Assembly (NCBI GenBank): GCA_002282445.1
Contig: NCJK01000002.1
Span: 62,001 to 126,000, forward strand
Length of the DNA: 64,000 nucleotides
Direction: 5' to 3'
Origin: Burkholderiales bacterium 39-55-53
GTDB taxonomy: Bacteria; Pseudomonadota; Gammaproteobacteria; Burkholderiales; Burkholderiaceae_C
The notes under the pieces are model-generated. The model saw only the letters and a list, made by a program, of their open reading frames with translations, did no database searches and was not told the DNA's origin. The position numbers and the translations under genes are program-made. This document shows positions 11,666 to 15,446 of the stretch, piece by piece. Numbering within the stretch: the stretch's first letter is position 1; every line of letters begins with the position of its first letter.

Positions 11666-12370
11666 ATGATCGACGTTTACTCATGGCCCACACCCAATGG
11701 ACACAAAGTGCACATCATGCTCGAAGAGTGTGGTTTGCGATTAGGCAAAGACTGGTTGGCACACCCAGTAGACATCAGTCAAGGTGACCAGTTCAAGCCC
11801 GAGTTTTTGAAAATCAGTCCCAACAACAAAATTCCCGCAATGGTTGACCCACACGGGCCAGACGGTAAGCCAATCAGCCTGTTTGAGTCTGGCGCGATTC
11901 TGTTGTACCTTGCTGCTAAAACTGGCAAGTTTTTACCCAAGAGCGACCGCGCTAAATATGAAGTACTGCAATGGCTGATGTTTCAAATGGGTGGCGTGGG
12001 TCCTATGCTGGGCCAAGCGCATCACTTTCGCACCTATGCGCCAGAAAAGATTGACTACGCCTACAACCGTTACACCAACGAAGCTAAACGCTTATATGGC
12101 GTGATGGACAAGCGATTACAAGAAAGCAAATTTATCGCGGGCAACAGCTACAGCATTGCAGACATTGCCATCTTTCCTTGGACACGCAGCTGGGACAAAC
12201 AAGGCATTGATTGGGCGGACTTCCCCCACCTCAAAGCTTGGTTTGATTTGATTTCAGCGCGTCCTGCAGTTCAACGCGGTGTGCAGGTATTGGCTGATTT
12301 ACGCAAGCCTTTAACCGATGACAAGGCGAAAGATGTTTTGTTTGGTTCGGGGCAGTATCAGAAACGTTAA
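11666..12370 (+). CDS. YfcG/YghU-like disulfide-bond oxidoreductase (Nu-class GST)
   Basis: A 234-residue GST-fold protein with the Nu-class signature: M-I-D-V-Y-S-W-P-T-P-N-G-H-K-V at the N-terminus (the T-P-N-G-H-K loop binds glutathione disulfide), then I-S-P-N-N-K-I-P-A and L-F-E-S-G-A-I-L-L-Y-L. E. coli YfcG, which reduces disulfides with glutathione, shows the same motifs at the same places. The gene starts nine bases behind the acyl-CoA dehydrogenase stop, so it is likely in that operon. Its TAA overlaps the opposite-strand stop of the next gene in the palindrome TTAA. Confidence 0.9.
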   Translation: MIDVYSWPTPNGHKVHIMLEECGLRLGKDWLAHPVDISQGDQFKPEFLKISPNNKIPAMVDPHGPDGKPISLFESGAILLYLAAKTGKFLPKSDRAKYEVLQWLMFQMGGVGPMLGQAHHFRTYAPEKIDYAYNRYTNEAKRLYGVMDKRLQESKFIAGNSYSIADIAIFPWTRSWDKQGIDWADFPHLKAWFDLISARPAVQRGVQVLADLRKPLTDDKAKDVLFGSGQYQKR

Positions 12371-13587
12371 GGTGGCGTTGTACTAAAAGAACAACGCTGC
12401 TCTGACGAGACACAAGCACCGTCAAAAGCAACAAAATCACCCAGAGTGTTGCGTTTGATTTGCGAAACAAAACCGCCAGTAGGGTTGTAGCCATTGCTTG
12501 GCAAAGCAAGCTCATCACCGTTGAGATTCACTAAATTGATTGTGGTTGCAGATTGGTTATTCGTCGGCAACTCGTAACGCAGCACACTCATGACTGCTGC
12601 GGATGATGCATTCTCTACAGGTTCATTTTTTGCCAAAACGTAGAGATATGCATTTGTCTCAACTAGGTCGTACAACTGAGCTGTCGAACCACTCAGCATT
12701 TTGTTTTCAAAGACATTGGATACGCCTGTCAAGTGATTCACATAGTAGCGACCGTTATCGTTTTTAAGGTAGACCATGGTGGTGTTTGACACTGCACCAC
12801 TGCCTCCGATCACAAGATCCGGCTTGGCGTTTGAACGCGGCAACAAAAACACCTTGCGATGCAAGGTCGGAAACACTTGGCCTGCACCCGTCGTCGGTAT
12901 ACGTGACAGATCCTTTGTCAAACTGCCAGCACCAGTCTTCGTTCCATCGTTCATCAACACAATGGCTTGACCGTTATCGGTAACTACCAAGTCAATATCG
13001 CCATCCCCGTCGATGTCGCCGGCTGCTGCACCCCATGACTGCTGCAAAGTAAAACTAGTCTCTTGCCGGAGATATGTGGACGAATTAGCTTGACTGACAA
13101 AAAGAACCTGTTTGAATGCCCCTACACCCCCGCACACAACATAGACATCAGGCTTACCATCAGCGTTGAAGTCAGCTGTGATCGACTGCACAACAGTCTG
13201 ACAAACTCCTCGATCATTCAGCAAGGTAGTGGTTGCATCTTCCCAAACACCGCCGGCAGATTTTTTGAGGAAATAAGCCTTGGCCGATGCTCCAGATTGA
13301 CTAACTGCGACAAAGGCTGAAAAAGTACCGTCTTGAAAAAAATCACCAAACGTCAGTGACTCAGCGATGGAGCTGCCAACTGGTGAAGTTGTTGTGATAC
13401 TTGGAATTTGTGGAACGTCGAGTGCGATGCCGTTCTTGTTGGCATATGAAGAAGTAGCAACTGACAACGGCATAGGGACAGAGGGGTTGGTCGCCTCATT
13501 AGAGGAGCTGGAACTACCACCCCCACCCCCGCAACCTAACTGCATGAGCGAAAAAAGAAAAACAACAAATATTTGTAAAAATTTCAT
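12367..13587 (-). CDS. Exported FG-GAP/VCBS-repeat lipoprotein of unknown function
   Basis: A 406-residue protein with a hydrophobic signal segment (about 3-17) followed by Cys19 and poly-Gly/poly-Ser (C-G-G-G-G-G-S-S-S-S-S), the usual look of a betaproteobacterial lipoprotein, although the residues before Cys (M-Q-L-G) are not the classical L-x-x. Calcium-binding FG-GAP/VCBS-type loops are visible at about 138-147 (ADFNADGKPD) and 190-199 (GDIDGDGDID). These repeats build beta-propeller surface proteins. Base composition looks richer in A+T than the neighbours. No partner gene identifies its role; a surface-adhesin or binding role is only inferred. Confidence 0.75.
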   Translation of the reverse strand: MKFLQIFVVFLFSLMQLGCGGGGGSSSSSNEATNPSVPMPLSVATSSYANKNGIALDVPQIPSITTTSPVGSSIAESLTFGDFFQDGTFSAFVAVSQSGASAKAYFLKKSAGGVWEDATTTLLNDRGVCQTVVQSITADFNADGKPDVYVVCGGVGAFKQVLFVSQANSSTYLRQETSFTLQQSWGAAAGDIDGDGDIDLVVTDNGQAIVLMNDGTKTGAGSLTKDLSRIPTTGAGQVFPTLHRKVFLLPRSNAKPDLVIGGSGAVSNTTMVYLKNDNGRYYVNHLTGVSNVFENKMLSGSTAQLYDLVETNAYLYVLAKNEPVENASSAAVMSVLRYELPTNNQSATTINLVNLNGDELALPSNGYNPTGGFVSQIKRNTLGDFVAFDGACVSSEQRCSFSTTPP

Positions 13588-13691
13588 CTTATGGTTTGAA
13601 TCGACCCAAGACCACTTTACTTGATATATTGAAATAAACGGCTGACAAACTGATAAAGTTGCAACTGTCGCAAACGATAAAAAAAGACGTG

Positions 13692-14252
13692 ATGATTAAG
13701 AAGTTTTTCCTGTTGACCTGCCTGCTCCTGTCTGTGTGGACGGGCGTGCTCGCACAAGATAAACCCTCTGCTTCACGCGCTATTTTGGCCCGCCCCCCGC
13801 AATCTGGCTCTGAGCCCATGCTGCTGCTGGGCCCTAAAAATCGTCCTTACACGGAGATCATGGTTCACACCACCAAACTTGACTACTTTGACTGCAAAGG
13901 CATTGTCGCCCCTTGGTTCCGTGAGTTACTGGTCGCAGAAATGAACTACTTTGCCGAATTGGTGGAGTTACCCTTCGTCAAAGGTGATGCTTGCGTGGTG
14001 AGCATCGGTACCGACAAGAGCCTGACCCCTGGGCGCATCAACATTCACCTTTATGTGAATGAACAACGCCTTACAGCCTGCGTTCGCAACGAGCAATGCC
14101 CCGTGTTTCGCAGCGTCAGCCTGATCCCTAAAGACAAAGTGCTGTATCGCTCTTACTTCTTGTCCGACATGTCTCGCAAACTGATTTCTCAGCAATGCGT
14201 GACGGACAAGGGCAAGCTACATACTGACACCACCTGCTACACAGTGCCTTAA
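13692..14252 (+). CDS. Exported six-cysteine protein of unknown function (paralogue A)
   Basis: A 186-residue protein that I do not recognise. A clear signal peptide (about 1-21, MIKKFFLLTCLLLSVWTGVLA) precedes AQDKP. Six cysteines at 68, 101, 130, 136, 169 and 182 follow in the mature part, probably forming disulfides in the periplasm or outside. The frame is open from 13659, but the ATG at 13692 gives a proper signal peptide. The next gene encodes a paralogue with all six cysteines at matching spacing and shared motifs (Y-F-x-C, L-x-A-E-M-N-x-F-A, P-K-D-K, L-Y-R-S-Y). No catalytic motif is visible. Confidence 0.72.
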   Translation: MIKKFFLLTCLLLSVWTGVLAQDKPSASRAILARPPQSGSEPMLLLGPKNRPYTEIMVHTTKLDYFDCKGIVAPWFRELLVAEMNYFAELVELPFVKGDACVVSIGTDKSLTPGRINIHLYVNEQRLTACVRNEQCPVFRSVSLIPKDKVLYRSYFLSDMSRKLISQQCVTDKGKLHTDTTCYTVP

Positions 14253-14308
14253 GGGTTTTTTGCACTGATTGCTAAAGCCTACCCTTGAAAAGTCGATCTT
14301 CTAGGGAT

Positions 14309-15235
14309 ATGCGTTTTCCTTCATCTACCTTCATCACGGCTGTACTCGTTCTGACAAGCCTCTTCGGCTTGCCAGCTTGGGCGAATGATCCGCCCAAAAA
14401 ACCTGCGCCCATTGAGGAGCCCCCTAAGCCCTCGTTCGATTACGTCGAAGAAGAAGGCGTCAAAGGACGCGGTGGATACATCTATAAACGTGTCGCCAAG
14501 CCAAAGTTTGAAGAGCCTGAGCCTGTTCCAAAGGCACCGTTCCCAGAACCGCCAGAGCCACCTGAGCCGCCCAAAAAGGACGACCACGGGAAAAAGGACG
14601 ATGGCCATGGAGAACCAAAGAAAGAAGAGAAAAAAGACGATGGTCACGGCGCGCCTCCTAAAAAAGAGGACAAGAAAAAAGATGATGGGCATGGTGGTGG
14701 GCACGGCAAAGATGCCCCAAAGCCCACTCCACCTGCCTTCAGCGCTGTGTACGACCCAGCAATCATTAAGCTCGATGCCAATAACCGACCTCTGACGCCC
14801 GTGATATTCACGAACGTGTATGCCGATTACTTTGTGTGCCATAAAACCATCAAGGTGAAGTTTCGTGACCAAGTTTTGGCAGAAATGAACACCTTTGCCG
14901 ACCGGATGGGCTTACCACGCGCCAAAGATATGCCGTGCATGATCAAAGTGGCCAAGCCCAACACGAAGTTTCCAGGCGCGATTTACATTGAGTTCTATGT
15001 CGATGAAAAGGCTGAGAAAGCCTGCATCAAGAAAGCCGAATGCGGCTCAACCCGCTTGTTGATGCTTTTTCCTAAAGACAAGACCGGCATCAAAAGCAAA
15101 GAGCTCTATCGGTCATATGTGCTGACGGACGAAAAGAAGTTTCGCCGAGCGAACTACTGCGTGAGCCCCGATGGGCAATTCTTGGGGGAAAAGCACTGTT
15201 ACGTGGTACTTCACCCGGATTGGCTGTTCAATTAA
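14309..15235 (+). CDS. Exported six-cysteine protein with Pro-rich and KKDDGHG-rich linker (paralogue B)
   Basis: A 308-residue protein that I do not recognise. It has a signal peptide (about 1-26), then a Pro/Glu-rich segment (28-88), a low-complexity region of KKDDGHG-like units (about 89-137) rich in Lys, Asp, His and Gly, and a C-terminal domain (about 145-308) homologous to paralogue A. Cysteines lie at 177, 210, 239, 245, 284 and 297. The His/Asp-rich linker could bind metal ions or polyanions; this is a guess from composition. A TTG at 14285 could extend the frame, but ATG 14309 starts the signal peptide. It follows paralogue A by 56 bases. Confidence 0.72.
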   Translation: MRFPSSTFITAVLVLTSLFGLPAWANDPPKKPAPIEEPPKPSFDYVEEEGVKGRGGYIYKRVAKPKFEEPEPVPKAPFPEPPEPPEPPKKDDHGKKDDGHGEPKKEEKKDDGHGAPPKKEDKKKDDGHGGGHGKDAPKPTPPAFSAVYDPAIIKLDANNRPLTPVIFTNVYADYFVCHKTIKVKFRDQVLAEMNTFADRMGLPRAKDMPCMIKVAKPNTKFPGAIYIEFYVDEKAEKACIKKAECGSTRLLMLFPKDKTGIKSKELYRSYVLTDEKKFRRANYCVSPDGQFLGEKHCYVVLHPDWLFN

Positions 15236-15249
15236 CAGCTAAGAGAAAG

Positions 15250-15326
15250 TGGCCTGTCCGACAGGAATCGAACCTGTGACCCACAACTTAGAAGGTTGTT
15301 GCTCTATCCAACTGAGCTACGGACAG
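15250..15326 (-). tRNA. tRNA-Arg (anticodon TCT)
   Basis: The minus strand folds into a full cloverleaf: acceptor CTGTCCG/CGGACAG, D arm with AGTTGGATA, anticodon stem ACAAC/GTTGT around CTTCTAA (anticodon TCT, reads AGA), T arm ACAGG-TTCGATT-CCTGT, discriminator G and an encoded CCA at 15250-15252. Length is 77 bases including CCA. It lies at the edge of the segment with three exported orphan genes. Confidence 0.97.

Positions 15327-15369: not shown

Positions 15370-15446
<77 letters not shown>

Follow-up and report, generated by a model that had tools for sequence, protein, structure and literature searches.

Two neighbouring genes (A and B) in a stretch of 64,000 nucleotides from Burkholderiales bacterium 39-55-53 (the window, meaning the whole stretch that was analysed) encode exported proteins that share a domain with six cysteines, raising the question of whether this domain belongs to any described family and what such a pair could do for the cell. 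Both open reading frames are present, with ATG starts at 13692 (A) and 14309 (B), and they are arranged head to tail on the + strand with a gap of 56 bases. Their features are:

13692..14252, + strand: gene A, 186 aa, with a signal peptide (13692-13754) and one six-cysteine domain
14309..15235, + strand: gene B, 308 aa, with a signal peptide, a charged linker rich in Lys, Glu, Asp, Pro and His, and a C-terminal six-cysteine domain
14384..14760, + strand: linker of B, a low-complexity charged spacer with DDGHG-type repeats and without cysteines
14762..15232, + strand: six-cysteine domain of B, with an insert of 6 residues between cysteines 4 and 5

Two exported paralogues with an invariant cysteine pattern

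Protein A contains cysteines at residues 10 (within the signal peptide), 68, 101, 130, 136, 169 and 182, so that those of the domain are spaced 33-29-6-33-13, and protein B contains them at 177, 210, 239, 245, 284 and 297 (33-29-6-39-13). A sequence-only reading of the locus had described the two genes as exported paralogues with these spacings, which proved exact to the residue. The homology that it claimed is equally clear, the alignment of the two domains scoring 228 against at most 61 in 1000 shuffles (mean 28.7, sd 5.0), with 50 of 143 aligned residues identical. Export also held, since a signal peptide or a lipobox is present in nearly all family members with an intact start; signal peptides were judged by eye rather than with a predictor, and cleavage would fall between GVLA and QDK in A and between PAWA and NDP in B. 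When compared with one relative (L005), dN/dS was 0.035/0.958 for A and 0.084/2.161 for the domain of B, and two more relatives agree, several dS values being above 1 and thus saturated. The low ratios against these three relatives mark A and B as real, constrained genes, which, judged by substitution rates, evolve under purifying selection.

A total of 204 raw hits to the domain, in which one gene often recurs because loci overlap, were reduced to 108 distinct complete domains, all of which contain exactly six cysteines (108/108), with no natural cysteine loss. The collected domains combine the six cysteines at conserved spacing with a set of P, R, S and D positions, P and R being kept in 108/108, S in 103/108 and D in 104/108. 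Four partial hits were left out of this set: three run off the end of a contig and one (L076) is interrupted by a run of N. No cysteine is missing within their readable part. A CXXC motif is found in none of the 108 domains, the nearest cysteines being 6 apart. The constancy of the six cysteines in 108/108 domains, together with a DsbB gene in the window's genome, is consistent with their forming three disulfides.

Distribution and pairing of A and B

The six-cysteine family was found in 77 of the 84 genomes of the window's genus, which by its named relatives is Limnohabitans, an abundant freshwater genus. Among the seven genomes without a match, the contigs of three (G264, G226 and G251) end past the glutathione S-transferase (GST) gene that lies upstream of A or within the lipoprotein gene slot between them (see below), three could not be judged, and one (G211, 84% complete) has a different gene after GST and neither A-B nor the lipoprotein gene of the slot. 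The ends of the three contigs at the slot (L126, L127 and L128, respectively) might fit strain differences in the sample. Beyond the genus, searches were carried out on overlapping samples of larger groups: in two profile searches 6 of 399 genomes and 4 of 299 genomes matched, all of them from the window's genus, a further sample of 299 genomes matched only in the window's own genome, and a sample of 300 genomes gave 3 matches including the own genome. The hits of this last sample in G701 and G728 have stop codons inside and were rejected, as were those in G046 and G169, which cover only 49-57 residues (E 0.006-0.009) and were obtained with a single A protein as query. As far as searched, the family was not convincingly detected outside the genus. 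A pattern scan of the genome_contigs collection gave 45 loci, with titles naming Limnohabitans, Comamonadaceae, Burkholderiaceae, Burkholderiales or Betaproteobacteria, and it would miss distant members because the pattern was built on the A-type sequence. A different genus may be the source of one divergent copy, L105, which has a GC of 0.63 and lies on a contig of G218, a genome with 5% contamination.

In the domain tree (built by a quick method, with SH-aLRT support only), B sequences (45 rows) are separated from A and a set of loose copies (63 rows) with a support of 99, and the A and B subclades are largely parallel, the identities of A and B across locus pairs being correlated at 0.92. 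B follows A in every genome_contigs locus with enough contig; in L053, L067, L068, L080 and L089 the contig ends before B could appear. The survey of gene neighbourhoods in relatives that the sequence-only reading had proposed showed a genus-wide A-B pairing, a propeller gene next to it that is swapped and, at other loci, the sulfur context of a third paralogue. A and B are an old tandem pair that has been kept together across one freshwater genus. One assembly (also G272) contains two A genes on two contigs (L052 on CANGML010000043.1 and L053 on CANGML010000204.1) beside different divergent lipoprotein genes, which points to a second locus or else to a bin that mixes two strains.

A swapped propeller lipoprotein upstream of A

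The region upstream of A is composed of the following features:

11666..12370, + strand: GST gene, conserved, bounding the slot on the side away from A (Pfam GST_C 2.7e-11, GST_N_2 4.9e-11)
12367..13587, - strand: divergent lipoprotein gene occupying the swapped slot, with a poly-Gly lipobox (CGGGGG) and FG-GAP propeller repeats (Pfam FG-GAP_3 1.5e-13)
13588..13691, no strand: intergenic region common to the divergent propeller gene and A, where DNA similarity to close relatives resumes in most comparisons

No second copy of the window's propeller gene was found in its own genome. The examination covered 43 of the 44 A loci (L068 was missed by the gene script); 40 of them show an upstream gene, and the other 3 begin at the contig start. 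This gene is a divergent lipoprotein in 30 of the 40, with a CGGG lipobox in 26 and CGSG in 4 (L083, L086, L089 and L090); for L086 the script had taken an antisense frame, and the lipobox-bearing gene of cluster 12 was counted instead. The divergent intergenic region measures 32-105 bases in 25 of the 30 loci, using the script's start codons. Thirteen of the 30 lipoproteins were scanned against Pfam: FG-GAP repeats were detected in 3 (the window, L050 and L083), NHL repeats above cut-off in 6 (L051, L054, L055, L058, L060 and L069), only sub-threshold propeller repeats in L084, and nothing convincing in L049, L066 and L087. BLAST grouping of 25 loci gave an FG-GAP group of 14, a second group of 10 (with five of the NHL proteins and the unmatched ones) and L051 alone. 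The remaining 10 loci (L074, L075, L077-L080, L082, L085, L088 and L093) carry a co-directional gene of about 300 aa (cluster 16) upstream of A, with no propeller directly beside it; 9 of them have a second, divergent gene (cluster 18), and A reads as a lipoprotein. No Pfam match was obtained for the cluster 16 and cluster 18 pair of L078.

Among 25 locus pairs with A proteins at least 90% identical, median identity was 91% for GST and 85% for B, and only 28% for the propeller (range 22-88), compared with 22.3% (maximum 28.1) for shuffled propellers; of 25 loci compared, the 19 with a recognised GST entered this table. Over all pairs, identity to A is correlated at 0.89 for GST, 0.92 for B and 0.26 for the propeller. 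The propeller of the window is 23-32% identical to those of the six closest loci, where A is 92-96% identical, and 55-62% identical to those of L061-L065, although A there is only 83-85% identical; against L057, L060 and L055 (A 84-85%) the values are 39, 25 and 25%. The same propeller is kept in a few close pairs (L070/L071 and L061/L062, 88%; L083/L090, 81%). At the DNA level, similarity to the eight closest loci is lost where GST ends or slightly before. It returns in the interval from the propeller start to A in 6 of the 8, the exceptions being L051 (just inside the propeller gene) and L052 (at the ATG of A); L050 shows an additional patch of 46 bases within the propeller gene. A backbone tree of 24 loci, built without L058 (its B is truncated where the contig stops), requires 6 switches into or out of the FG-GAP group, and well supported branches dictate 3 of these; since 48 of 500 label shuffles need as few, propeller type follows ancestry only weakly. 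The propeller gene has repeatedly given way to another propeller gene that is unrelated or only very distantly related to it, with breakpoints near the gene's own ends.

We tentatively favour, on the basis of gene order, a reading in which A-B stays constant in the envelope as the partner of a propeller lipoprotein that can be exchanged. A and B would be made together and would act in the cell envelope as an assembly, anchoring or presentation factor for whichever propeller lipoprotein occupies the slot, the charged linker of B spanning the periplasm. The propeller would be exposed on the surface, where phages, predators or ligands would select for its change; A-B would stay constant. Somewhat doubtful, in our judgement, is the alternative that the propeller just happens to lie next to A-B: its slot would vary as a phage or predator target, and A-B would be no more than the conserved flank. 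GST on the opposite flank is indeed equally conserved, and 10 of the 40 loci lack a propeller directly beside A; however, in L058, L063 and L065, where another gene takes the place of GST, the propeller still adjoins A, the short divergent intergenic region is common to both units, and G211, the one clean absence of A-B, lacks the propeller too. A toxin-immunity pair was rejected, because such a partner would be expected to vary along with the changing gene, whereas A-B does not.

Loose copies and the sulfur context of clade C1

The window's own genome has four family members: A, B and two loose copies (L002 and L003). Altogether, 17 loose copies, located elsewhere in the genomes and with no propeller recognised among the neighbouring genes listed, group at a support of 82, L103 and L105 lying on long branches. 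Nine of them form a clade (C1, SH-aLRT 98) of proteins that all read by eye as lipoproteins (lipobox in 9/9), as A itself does in one clade of 12 A rows. Every C1 row (9 of 9) has a sulfur-type gene no more than about three genes away, and four different arrangements occur. In L002/L110 and L003/L111 there is a rhodanese on each side; L034/L108 and L091/L107 have two Sulf_transp genes and an OsmC gene nearby (assigned by Pfam for L108 and for the OsmC of L107, the others named by likeness); L098-L101 have OsmC and a PALP enzyme, taken as cysteine synthase (Pfam for L099 and for the PALP of L100, the others by likeness); and L033/L109 have a thioredoxin and an FCSD-type sulfide dehydrogenase. 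The own genome contains 20 rhodanese stretches and 2 OsmC matches, which makes such neighbours uncommon, judged from this one genome. L110 and L111 (G000:C7 and G000:C1) are rhodanese-C-rhodanese-thioesterase islands of the same genome with a GC of 0.44 and 0.56 over the fetched stretches, a difference suggesting that one of the islands was acquired.

These C1 arrangements argue for a role of the domain in periplasmic sulfur or thiol handling, by which it would bind or pass sulfane sulfur or guard thiols, A-B doing so for another substrate. Nevertheless, we consider this role unlikely for several reasons. The eight scanned neighbours of A-B include no sulfur gene and belong mainly to fatty-acid oxidation, although GST is linked to glutathione; the surroundings comprise a 3-hydroxyacyl-CoA dehydrogenase, two enoyl-CoA hydratases, a Crp-type regulator, a phosphotransferase and an acyl-CoA dehydrogenase, as well as GST, a CoA-transferase and TypA/BipA. 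Nor do the other 8 loose copies have a sulfur gene among three or four genes per side: L097, L102, L104 and L112 form a separate clade of the family beside two hemerythrin-domain genes (scanned in L102), L095 and L096 lie beside a Rieske-type oxygenase (by eye) and a 7TMR-DISM kinase (both copies scanned), and L103 and L105 have none of these neighbours. In addition, CXXC is absent from all domains, and the six invariant cysteines point to closed disulfides more than to reactive thiols. Both readings derive from gene order, and we give more weight to A-B as a propeller partner than to the thiol or sulfur role suggested by C1.

The sulfur-import loci formed by YeeE/YedE-SoxT transporters and rhodaneses (PMC11582611) offer a system for comparison. 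They resemble the C1 loci, where Sulf_transp, rhodanese, OsmC and FCSD genes occur close to the copies of the domain, and the six-cysteine lipoprotein is not named in the part of that paper available to us. They differ in that A-B has no such neighbours and that the six-cysteine lipoprotein has no Pfam model.

Searches for a known family or fold

A has no match in Pfam or NCBIfam, and the best match of B (Zn_ribbon_11) reaches 12.4 bits against a cut-off of 24. When 30 members were compared with both collections, each listed family matched at most 2 of them, with a best E of 0.016, which is chance level. There was no match to a rhodanese domain in the 30 members, rhodaneses occurring only as neighbours of C1, nor to thioredoxin among the families listed for them, whose CXXC active site is also missing. 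A search of PHROGs gave only scattered matches (best E 0.01), none of them convincing, and two nucleolin-type chains found as sequence relatives in the PDB (E 0.0082 and 0.32) were taken as chance. AlphaFold models were obtained for A (pLDDT 90.2, pTM 0.86) and for the domain of B (pLDDT 85.8, pTM 0.83), and both have the same order of main elements: a strand, a long helix, two strands, a helix and further strands. Neither model has a Foldseek match in the PDB at E<=0.001, and that of A has none in BFVD. An undescribed family had been proposed from the sequence alone, and profile search and structure models indeed gave no known family (Pfam, NCBIfam, PHROGs, PDB). The shared domain is apparently an undescribed alpha/beta family, and both family and fold look new within the tools used. 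The portions of the literature retrieved (including PMC11039613 and PMC11582611) contain no description of the six-cysteine family or of the propeller slot.

It is very unlikely that these searches overlooked a known fold or family to which the domain distantly belongs, for instance a helix-on-sheet fold of the monellin/cystatin type. Monellins are the four top Foldseek hits of the B model (best E 0.34, TM 0.24/0.36) and one appears at rank 17 for A (E 1.6); this weak resemblance stands against scores that are not significant in either model, Pfam matches at chance level and the lack of any common sequence found, and we know of no monellin with six cysteines.

Two further ideas were discarded. 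A phage or mobile-element origin was rejected, as A has no tblastn match in phages or plasmids and none of 66 pattern hits in viral_contigs was confirmed; metal binding by a His-rich B linker was rejected as a general function, the His content of the linker varying from 0 to 11% across members.

Related systems and significance

Exported families confined to one lineage are well known, as are surface genes that are exchanged. TonB/TolA-type proteins span the envelope and are composed of an N-terminal export signal, a spacer rich in Pro, Lys and Glu and a C-terminal alpha/beta domain, an organization that B shares; they differ from B, whose signal peptide looks cleavable (by eye), which contains six cysteines, and for which, as for A, no TonB match was found in Pfam at E<=10. 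In surface-antigen cassette exchange, a framed gene slot with conserved flanks holds unlike contents in close relatives, as the propeller slot does; here the contents are beta-propeller lipoproteins, and the constant partner would be a novel pair of exported proteins. An exported pair that is near-universal in its genus, looks new in fold and lies beside a swapped lipoprotein gene may represent a surface system that meets phages, grazers or ligands, and the sulfur-linked cousins provide a second, independent handle on the function of the domain. It is a rather improbable, more far-reaching proposal that the whole constitutes a genus-specific module, in which a constant six-cysteine pair with a fold not in the PDB displays exchangeable propellers and its lipoprotein cousins were recruited to sulfur handling.

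Directly after B, on the - strand, the window contains genes for tRNA-Arg and tRNA-Pro (15250-15326 and 15370-15446). An open reading frame listed at 15296 passes through both of them, so the start of the CoA-transferase gene is probably located further downstream.
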